A DNA stretch of 27,651 bases from IMG/VR virus record IMGVR_UViG_3300031963_015213, positions 1 to 27,651 of that record, one strand, 5' to 3'. Below the pieces are notes generated by a model that saw only the letters and a program-made list of their open reading frames with translations, was not told the DNA's origin and did no database searches. Both the position numbers and the translations under genes were made by a program. Positions 2,721 through 17,429 of this stretch are shown here, one piece after another. This DNA comes from a virus. The stretch's first letter is position 1; every line of letters starts with the position of its first letter.

Positions 2721-3857
2721 TCACTGGAGGGAAGAGTTTTCCTTTTCCCGATATTTTCCCGCTGTTCCCGCTTGGTTCATTCCCCAAGTATAGGTGTCGA
2801 ATTTCTTAAGAACACCAAGGGTTTCAGCCTTCTGCATGCGTTTCTTCATAGTGTCCGGTAAGGTATCTTTTTCGTTCCCGCTGATTTCCTTTTCGATTTC
2901 AACGGCTTGTTTTGGAGTCATAGCGGGAAAGGCAATATTTTCCCGTTCAGCATGTTCAAAGATGGGTTCCCAAAACTTTCGCGCTTCGGTTACTGCTTTC
3001 TCTTCGCGCTGTGCTGCTTTCAGTCCTGCTGCCCGTCCTTGGAACGTGTGCATACCTTTAGTATCATCCCAGCCAAAGCAGAATCCTTGGTCTTTCGGAA
3101 TGTCACGCTTGCGCATATCGGTTCCGTAAATGGTCGAGATTCCCTCGCCATCTTTATCAATACGGATGTTTGCAAAGGCTTTGCGGTTTAACTCGCTGCC
3201 CAGGTGTCCCCGTGTCTTGGCTTCTTTGCTGCTTGGGTTCTCATGCAGGTTGGTAAAGATTGGGCAATTGTATTCATGGCATAGTGCATGGACTTGAGAG
3301 ACCAACTGCAAAGCTTCTATTTCATCGTTAGGGCTTGTGCATAGATCGGCAATGCCGTCGATAAATACGCAATCAATGCAACCCTTGGATTTTGCTTCTT
3401 TATCCATTACGCCACGCAGAATTTTCAAACGCTCTGAGCGAGCAAACAGGACAAGCGGAAATGATATAAGCCTTTCGCTGACCTCATGATGCCCTGAGCG
3501 GGTCACACTTCGATTTACTAGCGCATGCCAATCTGAGGGGCTCTGCTCGGTATCTAAGTGGATGATTGCGCCCGTTGCTTTACCCTTCCATTCGATACAA
3601 AGACAATCGGCTTCTGAATAGTATTCCCCGCGCTGTGCTGCCCCAAGTAAGGCAGAGACAACAGCGGATTTTCCCACCTTAGACTTACCTTGAATTACAG
3701 TTAGATTTCCACGAGAGGCAATTGGAACGTCTCCGATAACCATGCAAGTTTCATCCTCGGGCGGGATAACCTCAGGATCAAAAGCTAGAGCATAAGCCCG
3801 TGAGATTAAATCAGTTTCGCTATTGTCTGATGAGCTTTGAATTAGTTTTTCGTTCAT
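2721..3857 (-). CDS. RepA-like RecA-fold ATPase (AAA_25 type), probable replication helicase
   Basis: This 378-aa protein has a Walker A motif GKSKVGKS (residues 57-64), an HLDTEQ element (100-105), a Walker B strand CVFIDGIADL (about 163-172) and a TNLHENP sensor-like motif (about 202-208). That order is typical of RecA-fold ATPases of the RepA/DnaB-like helicase group carried by plasmids and satellites, which act as hexamers on DNA at the origin. A charged C-terminal region (about 290-378) may be a DNA- or partner-binding domain. The start ATG overlaps the stop of the preceding gene (ATGA, 3854-3857), so the two are translationally coupled. No origin could be identified. The exact role, replication or other ATP-driven DNA work, is inferred. 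Confidence 0.75.
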   Translation of the reverse strand: MNEKLIQSSSDNSETDLISRAYALAFDPEVIPPEDETCMVIGDVPIASRGNLTVIQGKSKVGKSAVVSALLGAAQRGEYYSEADCLCIEWKGKATGAIIHLDTEQSPSDWHALVNRSVTRSGHHEVSERLISFPLVLFARSERLKILRGVMDKEAKSKGCIDCVFIDGIADLCTSPNDEIEALQLVSQVHALCHEYNCPIFTNLHENPSSKEAKTRGHLGSELNRKAFANIRIDKDGEGISTIYGTDMRKRDIPKDQGFCFGWDDTKGMHTFQGRAAGLKAAQREEKAVTEARKFWEPIFEHAERENIAFPAMTPKQAVEIEKEISGNEKDTLPDTMKKRMQKAETLGVLKKFDTYTWGMNQAGTAGKYREKENSSLQ

Positions 3858-4383: not shown

Positions 4384-4977
4384 TTACTTTGCGCGTTTGG
4401 CTTTTAAACTTGTTAATTGATCTAACATCTTTGTCTTGCCATGGATTAAGAATGCTCTGGGCATTTTAGAGATTCCAAAATGTCGCCGATCATTTTTAAC
4501 AGTCTCGCTGTCTATTTCCTGCGAGAGAAGTCCAGATAGAATTTTCGCAACGTCCATATCTGACCACCACATAAAACCAGGCTTTATTCCAGCATGGATA
4601 GTAAATTGGTTCCATACGAAAGCCCTTCTTCTTAATAACACGGGAGTCATTTTTGACGATTTGTTTGTATCAAAAAGCGCGCCCTTGTTTGTCCCTTTGG
4701 TTATCTGAATCATCATTGAAAGCTGTAGCTCTAGCTTTTCTTTTTCGGTAGTTTTTTCACTGAAGGAATCTAAGTTGCTCCAATAGCTGATAGGGTCATC
4801 TTTTGCATCCCAGACTAATTTGACTATTGCGTTAAATGAAGTGCTGATTGCTTTATCTACATCCACTGGCAAGGGATTTGGTTCTTCTTTCGGGCTACAC
4901 CAACTATATCCCAAATCTTCAGGCGAGATAGTGATCAAACCATTCCGATTATTTACTGGTTTCTTTTTTTTATTCAT
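4384..4977 (-). CDS. Unknown 197-aa protein downstream of integrase
   Basis: The ATG overlaps the integrase stop (ATGA, 4974-4977), so it is translated with the integrase. It has a lysine-rich N-terminus (MNKKKKP) and a basic C-terminus (LTSLKAKRAK). The middle contains tryptophan-rich segments such as FMWWSDMD and LVWDAKDDPISYW. No family is recognised. The basic ends suggest contact with nucleic acid, but that is only inference. Base composition is as AT-rich as the rest of element 1. Confidence 0.7.
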   Translation of the reverse strand: MNKKKKPVNNRNGLITISPEDLGYSWCSPKEEPNPLPVDVDKAISTSFNAIVKLVWDAKDDPISYWSNLDSFSEKTTEKEKLELQLSMMIQITKGTNKGALFDTNKSSKMTPVLLRRRAFVWNQFTIHAGIKPGFMWWSDMDVAKILSGLLSQEIDSETVKNDRRHFGISKMPRAFLIHGKTKMLDQLTSLKAKRAK

Positions 4978-6233
4978 GCCGTCCTCCTTCCGTTTTCAAT
5001 TTGGGTAACATTTTCAGCTTTCGTCTCTGGTCTGATAGCAAAGAATTTCACGGCTTCCTCAGAGGTTACAAGCTGGCGATAATGGTTTTTAATGGTTGAA
5101 ACTGAGTTTCCACACTCATCAGCAACTCTCGCAACGTCCCGAGTTTCTGCGGTGCGGTAGGAAATGAAGCTATGCCTTGCGCCATTGTTGATGGGTTTCA
5201 CTTTGGCTAAGGCGTAAAGCTCCTGCATGTGGTCAACGTGAGCGCGTGCGGATTGTGTCCATGCCTTGCCTGTCCTGCGCGGCTGTGTCGCTATCCATGC
5301 GGCGCATGTCTCTGTGTAAGGTGCCATGCGAGCGCCTGTCTTGCCAGTGGTGCGAAATTCCCCAGCTTTATCTGGTAGCTTTGAAAGATCGGTATTGAGT
5401 GCTTCTGAAACTCGCAAGCCAGCAAACATTCCCAACGCAAGCACTGGCACAAGCTCGGGCTTATGGTCGAGGGCGGTTTGCATGAGCTTCGCAACTGCTT
5501 TGGGCGTGTATGCTTCTGGCTCGCCTGTTTCAACTCTCTCAGGCTCTAGGTCAGCAAGAGGGTTTCTCTCGACCCATTTACGGGAAGGGGCTGCTGCATA
5601 GCTGAAAAAGGCGCTTAGAGCGGCTCTGTAATGGTTCCGCGACAATGAGCCAAGTAAGGGCGACTTAGGCAATTTAGCGGGATTCCTACGCGATCTGAGG
5701 GAGGTTAGCCACTGATCAATTTCTGCGGTAGTAATTGAGCGAGACTCCCTTGTGCCGAAAGTCTGAGCAAAGCGCGTTAGTTTTTCTGATATGTTCTTCA
5801 ACTGTCTCTCTCCCACGCGGCTTCGCTTGTAATCCTTAAAATCTGCAACTCCCTCGGCAACGGTCACAGCTCTATCTGTCTGAGCTTCAAAACTCTCACG
5901 TAGCTTGGCTAATGCATCGCTAACAAGCTCCTCAAACTTAGGGACGCTTGCGCCTGCCTCAGTGAGATCATGCGCTGTGTCACGGTAGAAATCGAAAGCG
6001 CGTCTCACTTCGGGGGAAATGTCGCCATAACGCACGCCATGATTTGAAACCTCACGATCTTTCTTCTCGGCAAACTCCCATGCACCTTCCTCATCAGCGA
6101 ACGATTGGAAACAACGGCGTGTCTTTCCATTCTCAACCTCTCTAGGAAACCACACTCGAAAAGGTGCGCGTGGATTCTTCACAATAGAGACTTTGCAATG
6201 GTTTAAATCTGGTCTTTTAGGCTTCCGAGGCAT
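4974..6233 (-). CDS. int: Tyrosine recombinase (integrase) of element 1
   Basis: The 419-aa protein has an N-terminal arm-binding-like region, a SAM-like core-binding region (about 125-215) and a C-terminal catalytic domain. Catalytic candidates are Arg274 (FAGLR), Lys298, Arg353-His354 in NGARHSFISY, and His384-Tyr385 in NHYRQ. The first His of the usual HxxR box is replaced by Asn350. It would catalyse site-specific integration and excision at the tRNA-Ser core. ATG 6233 (MPRKPK) was chosen; an upstream TTG at 6269 in the same frame is less likely. The gene starts about 100 bp from the 6331-6388 core with arm repeats between, a standard int-att layout. It shares RHSFISYR and HYR boxes with the prophage integrase. 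Confidence 0.92.
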   Translation of the reverse strand: MPRKPKRPDLNHCKVSIVKNPRAPFRVWFPREVENGKTRRCFQSFADEEGAWEFAEKKDREVSNHGVRYGDISPEVRRAFDFYRDTAHDLTEAGASVPKFEELVSDALAKLRESFEAQTDRAVTVAEGVADFKDYKRSRVGERQLKNISEKLTRFAQTFGTRESRSITTAEIDQWLTSLRSRRNPAKLPKSPLLGSLSRNHYRAALSAFFSYAAAPSRKWVERNPLADLEPERVETGEPEAYTPKAVAKLMQTALDHKPELVPVLALGMFAGLRVSEALNTDLSKLPDKAGEFRTTGKTGARMAPYTETCAAWIATQPRRTGKAWTQSARAHVDHMQELYALAKVKPINNGARHSFISYRTAETRDVARVADECGNSVSTIKNHYRQLVTSEEAVKFFAIRPETKAENVTQIENGRRTA

Positions 6234-6276
6234 GCGCGTAGATATGCCGCAAAGTGCATTGAAAAGCAAGATTTAG

Positions 6277-6330: not shown

Positions 6331-6388
6331 GTCTTGAAAACTGGAGAGCCGAAAGGTTCCGTGGGTTCGAATCCCACCCCCTCCGCCA
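6331..6388 (+). repeat. Attachment-site core, shared copy (tRNA-Ser 3' fragment)
   Basis: This is an exact 58-bp copy of the tRNA-Ser 3' part at 317-374, without the 5' part of the tRNA, so it is not a functional tRNA. It is both the right boundary of element 1 and the left boundary of the prophage, whose integrase starts 118 bp further on. Confidence 0.93.
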
Positions 6389-6505: not shown

Positions 6506-7831
6506 ATGACCCGGAAACGCAAACGCCGCAGCAGTGTCGTGGAAATCGGCAACGGTCCCGCGAGAATCAAGATCTACACGATGAACCGTCGGGATGGTTA
6601 TCCCGAGTTCACGCTTTCATGGAAGGAAGCAGCCAGGCGCAAGACGCGCAGCTTCTCCTCGATGGATGAAGCGCGGATGATCGCCCAGCAGATCAGCGTC
6701 CGACTGACCAATGGCTGGACGGCCGCCGATGAGGCTACCCGCCGTGACATCGACCTGCTCCGCCACTGCGAGCAAGTGGCACGGGATCACGGAGTCGGTC
6801 TTTCCGCCGCGATGGACGAATGGGCCAGCGCACGGAAAGCCGCAGGTGAAATCCCGCTGTCCGATGCCGTCCGGTTCTATCAGGCGAACCGGGCCGATCT
6901 GTTCGCCGTCCGGACCAACGTCCAGGCGGCCGCCGAGTTCGTCGAGTCGCTGAAACGAAAAGGCGTGAGCGCCATCTATGTCCGGAACGCCACCAGCAGC
7001 CTCAAGCGGTTTACCGACGTCGTGGCGGGCAACATCGCGGATGTCAGCGTGGCCGACATCAACCGATTCCTTGACGGACTCAAGAGCCTTGGGCCGGTCA
7101 GCAAGAATGGCATCCGGCGAAACCTCGTCACCATGTTCGGATTCGCAAAAAAACAGGGATACCTCCACCCCGACCGGAAGACTGCTGCGGAACAGAGCGA
7201 CTCATTCAAGGAGACTGAGAAAGAGATCGAGATTTTCACGCCAGACGAGATGCGTGACATCCTGCTCGCCGCCCACGCCCGCATCCTGCCGCTCATCGCC
7301 ATCGGCGGATTTTGCGGAATCCGGTCAGCCGAGGTTGAACGCCTCACCTGGCAGGACATCAAGTGGGATCGAGGGCACATCGAGATCGCCAGCCACAAGG
7401 CGAAGACGGCGGCGCGGCGACTCGTCCCCCTCCCCGAGAACCTCAAGGCGTGGCTTGCTCCATGGCGTGAGGAAACCGGCCCGATCCTCACGATCAGCGA
7501 TGTGTCGGGTGCCTTGGGCGATACCGCCGTGAAGGCGAAAATCCCCGGCGGATGGCGTCAGAATGCCCTCAGACACTCGTTCATCAGCTATCGCGTGTCC
7601 ATGACAGGCGACGTAGCTCGAACCTCTCTGGAGGCAGGCAACTCTCCGAAAATGATCTTCCGCCACTACCGGGAAATCGTGGACGAGGAGGCGGCGCGAA
7701 CATGGTTCGGCATCACGCCTCCCGATGGCTGGATGCCGACGGGACTCAAGCACAGCCTGCGGGAACGGATGCGGCGCTTGCTGGCACAAGAAGGGACACC
7801 GCGTGTTGACAGCGAAGATAGTGCAGCATGA
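6506..7831 (+). CDS. int: Tyrosine recombinase (integrase) of the prophage
   Basis: This 441-aa protein has a basic N-terminus, a core-binding region (about 118-215) and a catalytic domain. Catalytic candidates are Arg273 (FCGIRSAEVERL), Lys300, Arg356-His357 in NALRHSFISYR and His387-Tyr388 in FRHYRE. As in the element 1 integrase, Asn (353) replaces the first His of HxxR. It would insert the phage at the tRNA-Ser core 118 bp upstream. ATG 6506 is preferred; the frame is also open from a TTG at 6485, but that TTG is part of the TTGAC motif seen before many prophage genes. Its stop overlaps the next ATG (7828-7831). GC-rich codons match the rest of the prophage. Confidence 0.92.
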   Translation: MTRKRKRRSSVVEIGNGPARIKIYTMNRRDGYPEFTLSWKEAARRKTRSFSSMDEARMIAQQISVRLTNGWTAADEATRRDIDLLRHCEQVARDHGVGLSAAMDEWASARKAAGEIPLSDAVRFYQANRADLFAVRTNVQAAAEFVESLKRKGVSAIYVRNATSSLKRFTDVVAGNIADVSVADINRFLDGLKSLGPVSKNGIRRNLVTMFGFAKKQGYLHPDRKTAAEQSDSFKETEKEIEIFTPDEMRDILLAAHARILPLIAIGGFCGIRSAEVERLTWQDIKWDRGHIEIASHKAKTAARRLVPLPENLKAWLAPWREETGPILTISDVSGALGDTAVKAKIPGGWRQNALRHSFISYRVSMTGDVARTSLEAGNSPKMIFRHYREIVDEEAARTWFGITPPDGWMPTGLKHSLRERMRRLLAQEGTPRVDSEDSAA

Positions 7832-8055
7832 ACACTGCCATTCACTCCACCAACGATCCGGCGACGAAAAACGAACCGATTCTGATCAAGAAGAAGGAAC
7901 TCGCCAAGCGTCTATCAGTCAGCCCCCACACGATTGATGCGTGGGTTCAGCGTCGTGAAATACCCTGCATCAAAGTGACGCCTCGACTTTATCTCTACGA
8001 AGTCGAGGCAGTCATGGAAGCCATCCGGAAGAAATACGAAATCAACGCCGCGTGA
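7828..8055 (+). CDS. Excisionase-like helix-turn-helix protein of the prophage
   Basis: This 75-aa protein contains LIKKKELAKRLSVSPHTIDAWVQRREIPCIKVTPRLYLYEVEAVMEAIRK, an HTH_17/MerR-type DNA-binding fold with the RRxIPxIK and YLY wing pattern of small excisionases. It is translationally coupled to the integrase (ATGA). That supports a role as a recombination directionality factor or integrase regulator, although such proteins can also be simple repressors. It is followed by a strong terminator. TTGACA (7806-7811) lies 16 nt before its start. Confidence 0.8.
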   Translation: MNTAIHSTNDPATKNEPILIKKKELAKRLSVSPHTIDAWVQRREIPCIKVTPRLYLYEVEAVMEAIRKKYEINAA

Positions 8056-8070
8056 TTCCTGAACACGACA

Positions 8071-8103
8071 AACCCCGGACGGTGAGAGCCATCCGGGGTT
8101 TTT
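8071..8103 (+). terminator. Terminator after integrase/HTH operon
   Basis: AACCCCGGACGG (8071-8082) pairs with CCATCCGGGGTT (8089-8100) with one G-T wobble around a 6-nt loop, followed by five T (8099-8103). It lies between convergent transcription units and may also stop the late operon from the other side, though the T-run on that strand is short. Confidence 0.85.
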
Positions 8104-8110
8104 CATTGGT

Positions 8111-8299
8111 TCACTTGCGCTTCAGTTTTCGAGCCATGCTGACGAGCGACATGATACCGACGGCCAGGCCCACAAGTAGGGATGCCACCCGCAGAGTCCA
8201 TTCGACTTGCTCTTGAAGAGACGTGATTACACCGAGCACCGGAGAAGCGATTCCGACGATGGCTTTGAACGTGTAGTCGATGTCGATGGGGTGGCGCAT
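8111..8299 (-). CDS. Holin-like small membrane protein
   Basis: This 62-aa protein has two predicted hydrophobic segments (about residues 11-28 and 38-54, VASLLVGLAVGIMSLVS) and a strongly basic C-terminus ARKLKRK. Small two-helix proteins with a positive tail at the end of a late operon are typical holins, which permeabilise the inner membrane at lysis. ATG 8299 (MRHPID) was chosen because it follows the previous stop and a TTGACA motif (8314-8319); a longer frame to 8347 would overlap the preceding gene. It is the last gene of the operon. The holin call rests on size, topology and position, not on a recognised family. Confidence 0.6.
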   Translation of the reverse strand: MRHPIDIDYTFKAIVGIASPVLGVITSLQEQVEWTLRVASLLVGLAVGIMSLVSMARKLKRK

Positions 8300-8315
8300 T
8301 GGTGGAGGTCGGGTG

Positions 8316-8951
8316 TCAACGCAGGCCGTCGAGATCTGGCGGATCATCTTGGCGGAGGTATTTATTGGCCCATGCCGCGTAGCGGGCGGTGAGTGCGTTA
8401 TAGGTTTCGATGTCGCCGGCCGCCTTGGCCGCGTTAATGTCCTTGAGCAGTTGATTCATCCACTGGCCGTGCGGCTTTTCCCAAATGAACTCCAGCTTGA
8501 GCCGGAACGGATCAACGGTCATCGGCGCAACGCCGGGAAGAGTCCTCACCGGGTTCGCCGCCATCAAAGCGGATGGTTTGCTGAAGATGAGCGGGACGAG
8601 CGTGCGAAGATCCACCGGGTCCGAGGTTGATGCGGCGGGATGCGGCGTGACGTTCCGGAGAGTCAATGACAGCTCGACGGCTTCCGCAGGCGTCCGGCTG
8701 AGCGGATGAGCGGGCAGCTTTTTCACCGGCAAGGCCACGAGACGATCCAGCACCGGCAACTCCACCGGCCGCCCGATTTGCATGACTGCTGGTGCTGCCG
8801 ACGGCACGGGGCTTTCCGCGTAGTAGGGAGCGTTGTGCTTGCGATCCTTGGCCGCCGTTGCCACCAGCTCATTCAACTTGGGCGCGGGCGGAAACGGCTT
8901 GGCGTGCGCAAGGGTGGCGAGCAGCGCGGCAATGAGAATGTGTGCTTTCAT
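8316..8951 (-). CDS. Exported protein of unknown function
   Basis: This 211-aa protein starts with a clear Sec signal peptide, MKAHILIAALLATLAHA, then a proline-rich stretch (KPFPPAPK). ATG 8951 was chosen because the signal peptide begins there; a longer frame runs into the upstream gene. The middle is Pro/Val/Leu-rich, and the C-terminus (about 160-205) looks helical, with EAxNALTARYAAWANKYL-like residues. No catalytic motif or family is recognised. It is the third of three consecutive exported proteins next to the holin-like gene, so a periplasmic role such as spanin, lysis accessory or exclusion factor is possible. Confidence 0.75.
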   Translation of the reverse strand: MKAHILIAALLATLAHAKPFPPAPKLNELVATAAKDRKHNAPYYAESPVPSAAPAVMQIGRPVELPVLDRLVALPVKKLPAHPLSRTPAEAVELSLTLRNVTPHPAASTSDPVDLRTLVPLIFSKPSALMAANPVRTLPGVAPMTVDPFRLKLEFIWEKPHGQWMNQLLKDINAAKAAGDIETYNALTARYAAWANKYLRQDDPPDLDGLR

Positions 8952-8980
8952 GGTCGTCTCGTGGTTGGCGTCCAGATGGA

Positions 8981-10036
8981 TCAGTCGTTGGCAATGGTCG
9001 CCAGCCTCCATGCCTCGTAAGCGGCTTCGCCTTTGACGAACATCACGCTGCCAAGTCCCTGGGCATACGATACGGACTCGCCCCATGACGTGAGGAAGTT
9101 GCCGTTGCGTTCAGCCGCCTCCTGAACCGTGGCGGCGACGGCCTCTTGCGCGGACCAGTCGAGATCGTTCGGCAGCGTGATGGGAAGTTCAAGACCGGCC
9201 ACAATTTCACGAAGACCGGCGAACTTCGGTTCCTTCAACGCGGCGAGGATGGGAGCGAATGCCGCATCGAACTCCGCCCCTTCGGTCGGAAGTCCTTGTG
9301 ACTGGCGTTTTTCAATCAGAAGCCGCGCCAGCTTGAGCATCACCTTGTCGCGGCCAGCGGTGAAGGTGGCAGGCGAAACGTGCGCTGGCTGCATGGCCAA
9401 GTCGATCCACTCGGTCACCTTCATGGAAGAAAGCCAAGAACCTGGACGGCACAGCACATTGACGTTGCGGAACTGATAGAACGCTTCGCCGCGGATCGTG
9501 CCCGAAGGCAGGAATGTGGCGATTTCGGCCATGCGGGCAGCGATGCCGGGGCGGTGGATTCCGGCATAGCGGATCACTTCGACGTCCTGCGCGATGAGCG
9601 ACGGTTTGGCTGCGATGCGGTCGAGCAACTCGGCACGCTTCATGGGACTGATGGCCTGCATGATGGTATGCGCGGTGAACTTCCAGACGGGACGAAGGTC
9701 GAAGGGCGTCTGCATGTAGCGATCCACGAGAAGGTCGTCGGGATCGGTCAGCGTGCTGGTTTCCCATGCCTCGCGCCAGTCTGGGCCGATCAGCTTGGCG
9801 ACGGGATCGACGGCTTCCGCCTGAGCCTGGGTGACTGCGGCGACGAGTTTGGGATCGACGGTGCCAGGAGGATTGGTCGCGGCAGCCGCAGCTTGGGCCT
9901 GAGTGAGCGCAGCTTGTGCGGCGGCAACCTTGGAATCCCGTGCTTTCGCGAGATCAAGGAGAGTTGGCGGAGCGGCAATCGCTTGAAGCGCGCCGATGAG
10001 GGTGAGTGCGATGGCAGTCAGTAGTTTCATTTTCAT
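8981..10036 (-). CDS. Exported alpha-helical protein of unknown function
   Basis: This 351-aa protein has a signal peptide (MKMKLLTAIALTLIGALQAIA, likely cleaved before APPTLLD). An Ala/Gln-rich predicted coiled coil follows (about residues 28-75), then a mostly helical body that includes FDLRPVWKFTAHTIMQAISP. A second start, ATG 10030, lies two codons downstream. No lysozyme, amidase or peptidase motif is seen. It is separated from its neighbours by 12 and 29 bp, so it belongs to the late operon. A virion or periplasmic function is possible; I do not recognise the family. Confidence 0.75.
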   Translation of the reverse strand: MKMKLLTAIALTLIGALQAIAAPPTLLDLAKARDSKVAAAQAALTQAQAAAAATNPPGTVDPKLVAAVTQAQAEAVDPVAKLIGPDWREAWETSTLTDPDDLLVDRYMQTPFDLRPVWKFTAHTIMQAISPMKRAELLDRIAAKPSLIAQDVEVIRYAGIHRPGIAARMAEIATFLPSGTIRGEAFYQFRNVNVLCRPGSWLSSMKVTEWIDLAMQPAHVSPATFTAGRDKVMLKLARLLIEKRQSQGLPTEGAEFDAAFAPILAALKEPKFAGLREIVAGLELPITLPNDLDWSAQEAVAATVQEAAERNGNFLTSWGESVSYAQGLGSVMFVKGEAAYEAWRLATIAND

Positions 10037-10048
10037 TGGTGGTGTTAG

Positions 10049-10960
10049 TTATGGGGTGAGAGTGATCCGATTTTTGCGCCATTCCTTCGGGTGCATGGTG
10101 TTCCAGACATCGGAGCCGTTCGGGTGCTTGGGTTTTCCGGCAGGCGATTCGACCTGATAGATCCAGACGAGCTTGTCGTGGTTCTGTTGCATCCATTCGA
10201 TGGCACCGAGGTTTCCGCGGCTCGGTTGGAATAGGACGGTGTATCCGGGGGTGCCACCGGGTTGCAGTTGGGAGGTGAGCGAAGAGTTCTGGTCCCACTT
10301 CTGCCGCTTGAACTCGGTGTTGTCGCCGGGGGTGGCTGATTGGTTGGCAATAAACACCCATGCGTCTGGATCACCGGAGCCTTGACCCCACTCGGCATCG
10401 GCGGGAGCGCCTGTGGTGCAGAACCGATAGATGAAGTATTCCTTCTGGAACGCGAAGTATCCCGGAGGTGGCGGCTGAGGCGTGACCTCTGCACCAGGCA
10501 GGATAATCGCGGTGATTTCCCCACTCGGGATGTCCCACGGTGCGAGTGCTTGATTGTCGCTCACCAAGAGCAGCGTGTCAGAGTATTGGATTTCCCAGCG
10601 GTTGCTGGCGACACTCCACTTGGCTTCATGCGTGGTGCCGAGTGCGCGATAGACTTTGCGGCCAGCGACGGTCGCTCCGGTCGGGATGTAGTTGTAAAGG
10701 TAAGTAGCGCCCGCCTTGAGCAGGAAACCCGGCTCGAAGTTGGTGAGGCTGGCGCGGACCTGGACTTCGACGTATCCCTCTGGGACGGTGATCTCGAACA
10801 CAGGAAATCCGTCCTTGGTCGTGACGCTTGGGTTGTTGATGTCGTCACCGGGCGTGAGAACAATCGAGTCGCGGTTGAGGTCGCCCAGACGCTCCTCGCC
10901 CACGACGAACGGAACCGTCGCAATGAGGGCCAGCGAGAGGATGATGGTGCGCGGCTTCAT
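10049..10960 (-). CDS. Exported protein of unknown function, beta-rich
   Basis: This 303-aa protein starts with MKPRTIILSLALIATVPFVVG, a Sec signal peptide. The body is rich in aromatic residues and beta-type stretches. A PQPPPPGY linker near residue 165 splits it into two halves, and the C-terminal half contains many Trp (EWGQGSGDPDAWVF, WNTMHPKEWRKN). The start overlaps the stop of the gene upstream (TGATG at 10960). No family is recognised. A phage-encoded exported protein inside a tail-gene operon is unusual. Confidence 0.75.
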   Translation of the reverse strand: MKPRTIILSLALIATVPFVVGEERLGDLNRDSIVLTPGDDINNPSVTTKDGFPVFEITVPEGYVEVQVRASLTNFEPGFLLKAGATYLYNYIPTGATVAGRKVYRALGTTHEAKWSVASNRWEIQYSDTLLLVSDNQALAPWDIPSGEITAIILPGAEVTPQPPPPGYFAFQKEYFIYRFCTTGAPADAEWGQGSGDPDAWVFIANQSATPGDNTEFKRQKWDQNSSLTSQLQPGGTPGYTVLFQPSRGNLGAIEWMQQNHDKLVWIYQVESPAGKPKHPNGSDVWNTMHPKEWRKNRITLTP

Positions 10961-11610
10961 CAGATGACGTTTTTTGATTTGAGTGTGGAAAGCATGGTGG
11001 CGAACGCGTCCACGAGCTGGTCAATGGTCGCCGTGTTGGCATCAAAGGATTTGAGTTCGTTGCGCAGCGTGACGACGAATCCCTCGTCGGACTTCATCAC
11101 GAACGAACTTGGCGGCGGATAAGGTGGGTCGGCATCAGTGGGCACTCCCTCGGTGCCACGGTTTACGTCGTTTTCGATGATGACGAGAAACGTGCGGGTG
11201 CTGGTCGGCTCCCCCGCTCCCTCGCGCCAAGTGATTTCACCCATCAAGGTGATTTCTGAGAGCTCCTCGGAAGTCTCTGATCCGATGTTCAACGCAGAGT
11301 TGAGTTGCAGCGTGTTGAAACTGATCACGCACCCGTAGGTTGGCGTGTCGTCGCCCTCCGATGGCATCGACCAGTCCGCGCTGTGGGCGAGGTAAGAGCG
11401 GTCGAACTGGTTGCGCAGCTTGATGCCGATCTGGATTTCCAACAGCGCCGGGTCGCCAATCGTCACGGGTGTCACGCCGTTTTCGAGAAACACGACCTGG
11501 AGACGGGCGGCATCACCACGCTTGAAACGCAGGGAGTTGATCGCGCTTCGCTGGCTCGGTCCCTGGATGAGTTGGAGCGTATCAAGATCGACGTGGAGAT
11601 TCACGCCCAT
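10960..11610 (-). CDS. Unknown protein, probable virion or tail accessory
   Basis: This 216-aa protein has no signal peptide or membrane segment. The first 150 residues look beta-rich (LRFKRGDAARLQVVFLENGVTPVTIG), the pattern of small Ig-like or fibre-associated modules that take a parameter-like input. A Pro-rich linker (PPYPPPSS) follows, then an amphipathic C-terminal helix (NELKSFDANTATIDQLVDAFATMLSTLKS) that could trimerise. It follows the zinc-finger gene and overlaps the exported-protein gene downstream. A structural role is inferred from the operon position only. A TTGACA motif (11618-11623) precedes the start by 7 nt. Confidence 0.7.
   Translation of the reverse strand: MGVNLHVDLDTLQLIQGPSQRSAINSLRFKRGDAARLQVVFLENGVTPVTIGDPALLEIQIGIKLRNQFDRSYLAHSADWSMPSEGDDTPTYGCVISFNTLQLNSALNIGSETSEELSEITLMGEITWREGAGEPTSTRTFLVIIENDVNRGTEGVPTDADPPYPPPSSFVMKSDEGFVVTLRNELKSFDANTATIDQLVDAFATMLSTLKSKNVI

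Positions 11611-12125: not shown

Positions 12126-12129
<4 letters not shown>
11629..12129 (-). CDS. Phage protein with C-terminal zinc finger
   Basis: This 166-aa protein ends in CASCDRLRSNRTCAQCGCF followed by VDAKARFRSQTCPLRKW. The C-x2-C, C-x2-C-G-C and CPxxKW pattern is a zinc-ribbon-like module that recurs at the C-terminus of small phage tail-region proteins. The N-terminal half is acidic and helical (MKTEDILPECLRRLRTDPDFERRLR). The start overlaps the stop of the Tad2-fusion gene (ATGA), so expression is coupled. Function is unknown; it might be an assembly factor rather than a virion part. Confidence 0.7.
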
Positions 12130-13882
<1,753 letters not shown>

Positions 13883-13886
<4 letters not shown>

Positions 13887-14332
13887 GGCGACTGCGTGGG
13901 TGAGGTGACAAGGCGGATGGAGTCGTAAAGCGGGACCACCGGGCACGCGCCATACTTCGAGTTTGGGTTGCTTGGATCGACAACGGGCGTGACATCAATT
14001 GGGCGCGGATACCGTTTCTTGCCCTGCTGGTAGAGGTCGGCACCCGTGATGTTCACCGAGTCGTAACAGGTCGGCGAAAGCACGGTCCAATCCTCGGCAT
14101 AGAATTCCTCAACTCCGAAATCCGTGTTGCGAATGACCCGCGTGACTTTGTTTCCGGTGCCGACTTGTCGGTAGAGCAGCCAGAACAACGCGTTTTGATA
14201 GACGACCCACCGCAGGGCGCGTCCGGTGTCGCCGAACAATTCGAGATCATCCCATCCGGCACGACGCACCGCCCACCCGCGACGGGCGTATTCGACGGCC
14301 AGAGGCCAGATCATGCCGGAGCCGTAGATCAT
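13883..14332 (-). CDS. Stand-alone Tad2 (DUF2829)-like protein in the tail operon
   Basis: ATG 14332 (MIYGSGMIWPLA) overlaps the previous stop (ATGA) and gives 149 aa; the longer frame to 14434 lies inside the neighbour. Residues about 5-90 carry the Tad2/DUF2829-like signature: YARRGWAVRRAGW at the start and NTDFGVEEFYAEDWTV at the end. Known Tad2 proteins are small cytoplasmic oligomers that sequester the cyclic nucleotide signal of Thoeris. The first 90 residues are clearly paralogous to the N-terminus of the next gene, and similarity continues into the QQGK-x2-YP segment. The C-terminus is a low-complexity tail. It could instead be a virion-associated relative with another ligand. Confidence 0.75.
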
Positions 14333-15075
14333 GGGTTCGGAACAAGGTCGCGGTCGATGGCGATGCGGAAGGTCTTGGACGAACGGATGACCTCGTCGGC
14401 CAGCGCGCCCGGTTCGAGGTAGTCCACGCGCCACTCGATTTCGGCGATGGCATCAAAGGTCGTCTGATAGTCGCCCTGATAGTTGCCCAGCGCGTTGATG
14501 AGATCCGGCGTGTCGAGATCAACCAGGATGCGGTAGCGCGGTCGGTCGCTCGTGCCGATGATCTCGATGCCGCCGTTGCTCTGGACCAGCACCGTCTCAC
14601 CCTCGAACTCGCGGATGTTCATGATGATGGAGGCCATCGCCATCGTTTGCAGTTCCTCCCCCTTGAGGAATCCGACATCGAGAAACACCTTGTCGCCGTA
14701 TTTGAGGAACATGGCGGCTTGGCTGGCCTGCGATGATGAAGGCGTGATGCCGGGAACCGATACCGCACCGGATCGCAGGTCGATGTTCACCTCGATGCCG
14801 ATACCGTCGTTGAAGTTGGTGTCTTCGATCCCCATGGCCACCTCCAGTGGCGCGGACGGACCATCGCCGTTCGTGGCTATCACCTTGATGAGATAAACGC
14901 CGGCTGCCGTCGCCGCGCCGTTGATGAGTCCGGACGAACTGATCACCATGCCGGACGGCAGACCATTCGCGGTCCATGATGTCGGCGAGTTGGTCGCCTG
15001 CATCTGATACTCGAAATACTGCCCCTTGCGATAGCCGAGGACGGAGGTGGTGTTGGAAATGACGGGAATGGCCAT
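14329..15075 (-). CDS. Tail-associated protein with N-terminal putative Ig (He_PIG-like) domain
   Basis: This 248-aa protein starts with a beta-sandwich-like module (about residues 8-85): FEYQMQATNSPTSWTANGLPSGMVISSSGLINGAATAAGVYLIKVIATN. The GLPxGMxIxxxGxIxGxxxxxGxYxIxVxAT pattern is the hallmark of putative Ig (He_PIG) domains found in phage tail and bacterial surface proteins. The rest is predicted beta-rich (VLVDLDTPDLINALGNYQGDY). It follows the large fibre gene after 2 bp. A role in the tail tip or in binding host surface sugars is inferred. Confidence 0.8.
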   Translation of the reverse strand: MAIPVISNTTSVLGYRKGQYFEYQMQATNSPTSWTANGLPSGMVISSSGLINGAATAAGVYLIKVIATNGDGPSAPLEVAMGIEDTNFNDGIGIEVNIDLRSGAVSVPGITPSSSQASQAAMFLKYGDKVFLDVGFLKGEELQTMAMASIIMNIREFEGETVLVQSNGGIEIIGTSDRPRYRILVDLDTPDLINALGNYQGDYQTTFDAIAEIEWRVDYLEPGALADEVIRSSKTFRIAIDRDLVPNP

Positions 15076-15077
15076 GA

Positions 15078-17429
15078 TTATTGGATGGTTGCTTTGCCGA
15101 GACTGTCGGGTTCATCGCCGGTAAGGGTCGCCTTCAGTCCGTTGAACGCGACGAGTCCCCGCGGGTCGGTCTGGTGGTCGTCCGTGTCGAAGCGAACGAG
15201 ACGGCCGCGCAGGATAAAGTTTGCGGTCGTCATCGTGGTTTCAGTCGCCTCGGTGGCTCCGTAGATCACACGGTCCACGACGCAGGTATCGACGGAATCG
15301 ACTGGCTTGCGGACGATGCGCAGGCCGAAGCCGTGCGATGACGGAACACTCGTGAGCATGAAGCTGTGATCGAGCGAAGGAGGCAGGAACGTGACATCCG
15401 CGATGTTGCTCGGGCTTGGCGGGTTTCCCGATGGTAAGCCGATGTCGATGGCAACGCCCCAATGAACGAGGGTGTTCGAGTTGAAGACGGCGGCGACGAA
15501 CGAGAAATCGAGCGAGAGCCGCTTGCCGAGTCGCAGTTGCTTGCCGTTGACGTGGATGCGGAACAGCTCGCGGGAGAAGTCCGTCGGGTAAAACACCTGC
15601 TCGCCCGCGATGACCTGTTCAACCTGATAAAAGCCGCGTCCGTCCCATGCGTAGAATCCCGGGGCGGTGAGCTTGGTTGAGCGGCGGCCGAGATAGCCGG
15701 GGATCACCAGAGGCGCGGCGGTGTTGGTGTATTGATAGATCACGCCGGTCGCGGGTGATGCAGGGAGGACATTGGCCGTGGTGAAGACCAGCGGATCGAC
15801 ATGCACGGCGGGCAGCAGGCCGCCCACTCGCGGAAGGTCGGCGGGTTTGATCGACGGGACATCCTTCGCCTCGATCTTCTGGCGTGTCGGAAACACCTCG
15901 AAGAGTGTCGGCAGTTCCCACGCAGCGATGACGGTTTGTGAAGTGGAGCTGACGCCGGGTGGCGAGGTAGGGATGAATGTTTCCAGGTCTTCCACGCGCT
16001 CGCCAAGGTCATCAAGGATCAGTTGCAGCCCCTCGATTTGGGCGATGGTATGACCGTGCGCCTGAAATGCCGACACCGGGCCTGCGGTGGAAATGGTGAC
16101 GACATAGCCGTTCAGCGCGGGCGCTTCCGCAAACGTGATGCTGAGATCGTCCTCGCCATCGAACGTGACGGCCAGCGGTTCGACGATGGCGCGGCTTCCT
16201 CCGTTCTGGCGCACGGTGACATGCAGGTCGCGGGTGCCAAGGTTGTGGCTGATGGTGAAGTCCGAGTTCACCCCGTCACCGACGGGGGTGACGTAATGCT
16301 GTGAGCCGGTGATGATCTGGTCGGGCGTGAACGGCACATACGTCCTGCCATAGGGCGGCCGTAACCAGTCGATGTTGGCGGCGGTTTCGAGTCCTTCCCA
16401 GTTGAGTTCACGAATCAGGGAGATCGGAGCGCGGAACGGCGTGAGCGTGTAGGTTTTGTCAGGATCGTTCTCATCTTGAATTGCGACTTCGATTTCCAAG
16501 TCGGGCTTTACTTCGGCAGCTCCGCGCAGTGCGGCGGCGATTTCGGCGGTGTTGAGATCGAGGATGACGGTCGGATCACCGGGCGGCGCGGAAAACACAG
16601 CGACTTCGATCAACTCCTGGTCAATGCCGGCCATCTCGCCGTTGAAGGTGATGTGGGCGATGTTGGTCGCCGGGTTGCTGACGGAGAAAGATCCTCCATC
16701 GTCAGCCAGCACCGTGAGCGCGTCCTGAATTTCCTCGGGTCCGTCGTCCACGGACAATTCACGGGTCTTCTTGAACCCACGGCGCAACTGATAGGTGCCC
16801 TTGAAGGTCGGCTGGATTTTGAGTGCTTGGATTTCGGGCCAGAGCGTGGTGGCCGATGCCCCGCCTGCTTGCACCTCGCTCACCGTAGGTGCGGGCGGCA
16901 CGATCAATTCAAAGCTCGCAGTCGATGCGAGCGGCGCCTGCACGAGCCGGACCTCGTGGCGATATTGTCCCGCCACCTGCGTCGAGCGAACGCGCACGAA
17001 CGAGACGGGCCGCAATTCGGAAAGCAGTCCCCCGGCGGAATATCCGGATAGGGCGATTTCCTGCAGGCCGGTGGAAATGATCCACGAGCCATCCTGTTTT
17101 CCGACCACCGCGTCATCCAAACCGATGGCGGCGAGAGCGGTTTGCACAGCGCCCGCCGTGGCATCGTGGGAAATCGACGCGGTGTCTTGGCCGTCCACAC
17201 GCAACACGAAGAAGCCAGATGTCGGACGGGCATCGACGAATCCGATGGAGGCGCGGATGTGCGTCACAATCCTCTGGACCTCGATGGGCGATCCTTCGAG
17301 CGACTCGGCGAAGCGCAGGCCGATGCGCACCTTGTCACCCTGGACGAAGGCCGGGAATGAAATCGCGCTGCCGCCAAGCGTCGTGGTCAGCCTGCGGGTG
17401 GTGAGATTGGCGTAAACGGTGGCCTGCAT
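15078..17429 (-). CDS. Large tail fibre / receptor-binding structural protein
   Basis: At 783 aa this is the largest protein in the window. Two related beta-type modules occur in the first 300 residues (SGFFVLRVDGQDTASISHDATAGAVQ... and KGTYQLRRGFKKTRELSVDDGPEEIQ...). Around residue 370-450 is a module with GDGVNSDFTISHNLGTRDLHVTVRQNG, a common phage fibre module. A short coiled coil follows (AHGHTIAQIEGLQLILDDLGERVEDLE), typical of trimeric fibres, and then a beta-rich C-terminal domain that probably binds the receptor. It lies downstream of the tape measure and tail-tip genes, as expected. The start is ATG 17429; the upstream gene ends 32 bp before. Confidence 0.8.
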   Translation of the reverse strand: MQATVYANLTTRRLTTTLGGSAISFPAFVQGDKVRIGLRFAESLEGSPIEVQRIVTHIRASIGFVDARPTSGFFVLRVDGQDTASISHDATAGAVQTALAAIGLDDAVVGKQDGSWIISTGLQEIALSGYSAGGLLSELRPVSFVRVRSTQVAGQYRHEVRLVQAPLASTASFELIVPPAPTVSEVQAGGASATTLWPEIQALKIQPTFKGTYQLRRGFKKTRELSVDDGPEEIQDALTVLADDGGSFSVSNPATNIAHITFNGEMAGIDQELIEVAVFSAPPGDPTVILDLNTAEIAAALRGAAEVKPDLEIEVAIQDENDPDKTYTLTPFRAPISLIRELNWEGLETAANIDWLRPPYGRTYVPFTPDQIITGSQHYVTPVGDGVNSDFTISHNLGTRDLHVTVRQNGGSRAIVEPLAVTFDGEDDLSITFAEAPALNGYVVTISTAGPVSAFQAHGHTIAQIEGLQLILDDLGERVEDLETFIPTSPPGVSSTSQTVIAAWELPTLFEVFPTRQKIEAKDVPSIKPADLPRVGGLLPAVHVDPLVFTTANVLPASPATGVIYQYTNTAAPLVIPGYLGRRSTKLTAPGFYAWDGRGFYQVEQVIAGEQVFYPTDFSRELFRIHVNGKQLRLGKRLSLDFSFVAAVFNSNTLVHWGVAIDIGLPSGNPPSPSNIADVTFLPPSLDHSFMLTSVPSSHGFGLRIVRKPVDSVDTCVVDRVIYGATEATETTMTTANFILRGRLVRFDTDDHQTDPRGLVAFNGLKATLTGDEPDSLGKATIQ

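Follow-up and report, generated by a model that had tools for sequence, protein, structure and literature searches.

A possible exported host-recognition module in the tail-fibre slot of a Verrucomicrobia phage

Results

Organisation of the cassette

The analysis covered a linear virus record of 27,651 bases, referred to as the window, which starts inside an S49 protease gene; the host of the virus belongs to the freshwater Verrucomicrobia. On the minus strand of the window lie, in this order, a gene for a 216-aa anchor protein (10960-11610), three genes whose products are predicted to be exported, namely P1 (303 aa, 10049-10960), P2 (351 aa, 8981-10036) and P3 (211 aa, 8316-8951), and a gene for a two-helix holin-like protein of 62 aa (8111-8299). 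They are followed by a terminator-like hairpin (8070-8102), which separates the 62-aa gene from a convergent excisionase-like/integrase pair, the excisionase-like gene being at 7828-8055. The anchor gene overlaps the P1 gene by one base (TGATG) and the remaining intergenic gaps in the cassette are 12, 29 and 16 nt; this spacing suggests that the five genes close the late operon. The cassette is one gene longer than first described, as the 216-aa anchor gene is included in the unit. The hairpin has z values of -5.9 and -4.7; a stricter terminator scan called none, the loop limit of that scan being shorter than the loop found here.

The original prediction placed three consecutive signal-peptide genes in 8111-10960, and this is borne out by the ORFs of 303, 351 and 211 aa, all of which pass a signal-peptide rule (a home-made rule, not SignalP). 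The N-terminus of each has K/R and then a hydrophobic run, with a cleavage site of small residues. The 62-aa protein and the 216-aa anchor, which is without a signal peptide, both fail the same rule. PADLOC gave no defence-system match to any part of the cassette, and its candidacy as a defence system was dropped for this reason.

The two-helix membrane protein predicted to end the operon has the anatomy described for it, while its length is most likely 62 aa, not 78 aa. The 78-aa ORF starts at 8347; a start at 8299 avoids overlap with the preceding P3 gene, and this start methionine is the same in all four other rows of the alignment (A5). The protein consists of two hydrophobic helices (read by eye) and a charged, basic C-terminal tail. 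Members of its family occur at 46 viral loci, 40 of which have enough downstream sequence to be testable; in 17 of these 40 an M15_4 endolysin is encoded at most 1.6 kb downstream on the same strand, although the 17 represent two lineages only (L050/L051, and 15 close relatives including L058). Class II holins are small, two-helix proteins. The window protein is like such holins in its two hydrophobic helices, its basic tail and the M15_4 endolysins beside its relatives, but differs in that the endolysin of the window's close relatives adjoins the terminase instead. It is best read as a holin-like protein of a lysis-associated family.

The endolysin and the lysin interpretation

No endolysin is visible in the window, as had been noted from the sequence: none was detected by Pfam scans of most window genes, and a tblastn search of the window with the relatives' endolysin gave no match. 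In all four larger relatives an M15 peptidase endolysin (144 aa; Pfam PF08291, E 7.9e-19 in G002) is encoded between the large terminase and portal genes, a position upstream of the S49 protease gene, where the window record begins. The endolysin is missing from the window because the record is cut off and begins downstream of this position; as its absence reflects truncation of the record, the interpretation of the cassette as a source of new lysins loses its main support. Direct reading also shows that in three of the four larger relatives the M15 gene is preceded by that of a membrane protein of 125 aa, which has a lipobox-like stretch. The post-terminase protein of 125 aa in L015 (6248-6625) has three hydrophobic stretches and a FLASC lipobox, so that it looks like a holin-type protein joined to a lipoprotein start, and may possibly be a holin-spanin fusion. 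Relatives of its first part adjoin the 62-aa gene in other phages; in L144, L154 and L163 such a relative lies closely downstream of that gene.

P1, P2 and P3 contain no peptidoglycan hydrolase domain and gave no lysin match in Pfam, PHROG or NCBIfam. Direct reading of the predicted cleavage sites found no cysteine and no o-spanin lipobox. The earlier suggestion that one of these proteins may be a new lysin or spanin type is therefore not supported, in view both of this lack of lysin motif or lipobox together with the M15 endolysin found elsewhere in 4/4 larger relatives, and of the contents of the same slot (the region between the anchor gene and the 62-aa holin-like gene) in relatives, where it holds fibre/chaperone genes or other genes without lysin motifs. 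It is very improbable that the three proteins are a set of new lysins, spanins or other lysis factors. In favour of such a role, the cassette adjoins a holin-like gene whose relatives precede M15_4 endolysins at 17 of the 40 testable loci, in two lineages. The terminase-linked endolysin and the absence of lysin motifs or lipoboxes from P1-P3 argue against it, as does the fact that 36 of 55 relatives have other genes in the slot; a fold search with P2 gave no lysin-like match, nor any other match at E <=0.001.

The anchor and the contents of the slot

The anchor has a conserved N-terminal domain, to which relatives add a C-terminal fibre-like domain; the anchor of the window is short. Searches with this N-terminal domain located 59 viral loci and 33 in genomes, and all 33 of the latter are labelled Verrucomicrobia, Akkermansiaceae, Verrucomicrobiaceae, Akkermansia muciniphila or a related Verrucomicrobiota name. 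In complete slots the anchor ranges in length from 196 to 754 aa with the same N-terminal domain throughout, so that the tail-fibre module pattern of a conserved N-terminal anchor domain and a variable C-terminal part is present. With the window included there are 93 anchor loci, of which 59 have a downstream 62-aa gene, and 55 remained after near-copies were removed. The anchor loci outside the 59 are mostly cut contigs by their appearance; L127, L132-L134 and L136, also outside the 59, are distant slots without the 62-aa gene. Gene calls in the loci are our own.

The length of the anchor and the content of the slot are associated. Short anchors (<=280 aa) are followed by three exported genes in 18 of 19 loci, the nineteenth (L159) having a truncated P1 remnant only, whereas this is the case for none of the 36 long anchors (>280 aa, with extra C-terminal sequence). 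Of the long anchors, 34 are followed by no exported gene and two by one small exported FN3-like protein (FN3 assigned by eye). Fisher's test on three exported genes beside short and long anchors gives p = 1.3e-13 with relatedness ignored and with a 280-aa cut-off that was chosen after the lengths were seen; two of the “long” anchors have just 281 and 290 aa, and the former looks like a truncated 421-aa gene. Each of the 18 triads has three proteins that pass the signal-peptide rule, against a background of 11 out of 252 genes that pass it farther upstream in these loci.

The exported triads fall into versions A, B and C. In the tree of the anchor domain one clade of 11 (SH-aLRT 100) mixes loci with version A (4), version B (3) and long anchors (4). 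Parsimony on this tree gives 10 changes between the exported and long states, and the starred branches alone force 2. Since A, B and long versions are mixed within one anchor clade, slot contents have been exchanged. A second slot search covered 260 genomes of one family, 36 of which have the anchor, and returned 30 loci; no anchor was found in 17 of these, probably because the plus strand alone was read, 8 were duplicates and 5 were new. None of the 5 new loci, some of which are fragments, has the three exported genes or the 62-aa gene.

Several slots of long-anchor relatives contain genes that are cytidylyltransferase-like or glycosyltransferase-like (L032 6265-7605, L098 7199-8620, L104, L145 and L155). 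The gene in L032, a long-anchor locus, looks by eye like one for a sugar-nucleotide cytidylyltransferase, and in some long-anchor relatives the slot gene encodes a 471-aa glycosyltransferase-like protein (a weak Pfam match). In L055 one ORF (1837-2460) combines the start of a tail protein, a fragment of a version A P1 and the end of the 62-aa protein, and looks like a deletion joint spanning the whole slot.

Three versions of the exported triad

Version A is present in the window and 8 other loci (P1 283-303, P2 305-354 and P3 about 167-243 aa as called), version B at 6 loci (P1 234-239, P2 211-233, P3 120-136 aa) and version C at 3 loci (P1 335-336, P2 296, P3 201-206 aa). The P1 proteins of B and C share an N-terminal part (hhalign 99%). 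Comparison of version A with B and C by hhalign gave noise-level results at all three positions, and a relationship of the version A proteins to versions B/C or to chaperones was dropped on this account. For window P1 the values were under 1% against versions B and C and against long-anchor fibres. Searches of a phage collection by tblastn with window P2 and with the version B proteins gave no match.

Version C provides the link to tail fibres. Residues 180-336 of its P1 match PHROG 11393 “tail fiber protein” (E 3.2e-15), and this tip also matches 8 phage records, 4 of them annotated as tail fibre. Its P3 matches D_130, D_138 and E_118 (hhalign 97.9, 96.7 and 98.7%), which are slot proteins of 118-138 aa without a signal peptide, encoded next to long anchors; D_130 has a Pfam DUF4376 match above the cutoff. 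Both version C proteins have signal peptides. Because P1 matches PHROG 11393 and P3 has DUF4376 relatives, a fibre tip and a chaperone thus both carry signal peptides in version C. In Alteromonas phages V22 and A5, DUF4376 proteins are tail-fibre chaperones, and the fibre gene is followed by that of the DUF4376 chaperone (PMC7289586, PMC10579305). Relatives of the window keep this arrangement in the same slot. The window differs in that its proteins are three and have signal peptides, and in that version A lacks fibre or chaperone homology: window P3 gave hhalign values under 1% against D_130, D_138 and E_118, with no DUF4376 homology, and profile searches with version A P1 gave no match to fibre domains.

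An alignment of 12 version A sequences shows that window P1 is conserved at residues 23-93 and 173-303, with a swapped central region at 94-172. Its identity to the P1 of L083 is 85% (23-93), 28% (94-172) and 93% (173-303). Within 94-172, L083 and L092 are 78% identical, and the alleles of this region cut across the groups defined by the conserved flanks. Swapping of the central domain in this way is the pattern expected of a receptor-binding protein. P1 was modelled poorly (pLDDT 46), and its best fold-search hit (Z 4.1) was not used. P2 is modelled as all-helical (pLDDT 88, pTM 0.79); fold searches with it gave no match at E <=0.001 and a best Z of 5.5 on a short stretch, results that speak neither for nor against lysin, TPR or HEAT relatives. 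P3 has a proline-rich variable middle and a conserved C-terminus. PDB sequence searches gave no matches, or chance antibody matches. In L137 (11023-12085), a version A slot in an Akkermansiaceae MAG, P2 is split into two frames, and this slot is perhaps a decayed copy.

Independent occurrences

The AT-rich viral contig L176 has other downstream genes, which we take to resemble a T4-type neck region, and encodes version B P1, P2 and P3, all with signal peptides, P2 having 34% identity. In L136 a single ORF combines the anchor domain with a P1-like part of the version B type and has the hydrophobic stretch inside it. No ATG immediately precedes this stretch; one gene further on come P2 and P3, both predicted to be exported. 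The fusion links P1 to the anchor and, furthermore, shows that such a hydrophobic stretch can sit within a protein.

A comparable layout is seen in two cultured phages. The proteins gp19 of Burkholderia phage BcepC6B and orf035 of Xanthomonas phage PBR31 start with a MKKLIA-type signal peptide and end in the version C fibre tip, and each gene lies directly before a holin gene. They are like the window in the signal peptide and in this position, and have the fibre-tip C-terminus in common with version C. They differ in being a single exported gene without P2 or P3, preceded by a separate fibre or tailspike gene, and no homology was seen between gp19 or orf035 and window P1. PPWS1 and Mulvp2 have the same tip on ordinary fibres without a signal peptide. 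The part of the PBR31 paper that was available mentions a signal peptide for another protein alone.

Discussion

The cassette is tentatively interpreted as an exported host-recognition module that occupies the tail-fibre slot of a Verrucomicrobia phage and replaces the fibre domain, a reading to which we give somewhat less than an even chance. It is proposed because three exported genes accompany 18/19 short but 0/36 long anchors, because slot contents have been exchanged within one anchor clade of 11, and because in version C the fibre-tip P1 and the chaperone homologue P3 both have signal peptides. It is also consistent with L176, which keeps three version B genes, with the fusion of the anchor to a P1-like part in L136, with the pairing of signal peptide and fibre tip before a holin gene in BcepC6B gp19 and PBR31 orf035, and with the central domain swapping of window P1. 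For version A, the proposed fibre identity is based on position, gene pattern and the swapped central domain, not on homology, and its job is presumed to be the same as that of version C.

On this proposal the 216-aa protein would be a virion anchor without a receptor domain of its own. P1, P2 and P3 would cross the inner membrane by Sec, and their N-termini suggest that export does take place. P1 would be the receptor-binding part with a swappable centre, P2 a helical partner and P3 an assembly or chaperone-like partner, with P3 or P2 aiding the folding of P1. The 62-aa protein would be the holin-like part of the lysis system, for which relatives encode the M15 endolysin beside their terminase gene. 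Most likely the exported module would join the virion anchor once holin and endolysin have opened the cell, and we infer docking on virions rather than action as a decoy.

Several observations count against the proposal. Searches with the version A proteins detected no homologue among fibres, chaperones or versions B/C, the model of P1 is poor (pLDDT 46), and P2 and P3 of L136 retain signal peptides despite the fusion of the P1-like part to the anchor. The real receptor binder could be another tail protein of the window, for example that at 15078-17429. Furthermore, virion assembly in tailed phages is cytoplasmic, so that docking after export is conjectural, and we know of no exported fibre in a tailed phage. 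The main rival interpretation is that P1-P3 are exported and never join the virion; they might coat or mask the receptor, giving superinfection exclusion or protecting progeny from debris, or modify the envelope in the manner of Lom. The earlier suggestion of an envelope-modifying or exclusion factor falls under this rival. The signal peptides on all three proteins are in keeping with this, and the fibre-tip homology of version C P1 would fit a receptor-binding decoy equally well. There is also a precedent in lambda Lom, which according to PMC12309495 is an exported protein encoded in a tail-fibre region; the window cassette is alike in having exported proteins encoded among fibre genes. Lom differs in being an outer-membrane beta-barrel, a single gene and expressed in lysogeny, while window P2 is all-helical in its model. 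However, the triads occur only beside anchors without a C-terminal domain of their own, a rule that a free-standing extra gene need not respect, and in version C a chaperone homologue is co-exported. The promoter scan of the cassette was at chance level and the genes are spaced as in a late operon, so lysogeny expression is not indicated. A role outside the virion is regarded as less likely than the proposed module, though as its strongest rival.

Alternatively, the hydrophobic N-termini may not be used for Sec at all, and P1-P3 could be ordinary fibre, spacer and chaperone proteins of the cytoplasm, with a hydrophobic start that has a function in assembly. Such a segment does sit inside the fused anchor-P1 protein of L136, and the rule behind the signal-peptide calls is home-made. 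Against this, three signal-peptide proteins were called in 18/18 triads with a background of 11/252; the N-terminal stretch of version A P1 is low and variable in identity (8-82%) and yet keeps a constant pattern, and the non-exported chaperone homologues lack such a start. This explanation is considered improbable.

It is assumed that tailed phages fold their tail fibres and mount them in the cytoplasm, and full-text searches of a library of open-licence papers turned up no tail fibre exported by Sec in a tailed phage. If three Sec-exported proteins do repeatedly take turns in the fibre slot with a fibre and chaperone that stay in the cytoplasm, this would point to a second route of virion assembly or to receptor decoys made by the phage. 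The exported host-recognition module proposed here would mean that a virus may send its host-recognition parts out of the cell before it leaves. The broader claim that some tailed phages export fibre and chaperone by Sec, with the fibre maturing in the periplasm and joining a short anchor at lysis in a slot that alternates with a cytoplasmic form, is doubtful at present. BcepC6B and PBR31, as two cultured phages with an exported fibre-tip protein before the holin, make either reading testable.

Other features of the window

A 58-base exact direct repeat (317-374 and 6331-6388) corresponds to the 3' part of a tRNA-Ser gene (287-374). The 6-kb element between the repeats encodes an integrase-like protein (4974-6269), an AAA_25-like protein (2721-3857) and a Sel1-repeat-like protein (873-2630); it adjoins the phage integrase, an arrangement of a satellite-like element in tandem with a prophage. 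The neighbouring genes 12126-13886 and 13883-14338 have a common N-terminal domain (GMIWPLAAEYARRGWAVRRAGW...), which gave no Pfam match and which we take to resemble DUF2829/Tad2. The product of 12126-13886 also contains Cys-Pro-rich repeats and a long glycine run.
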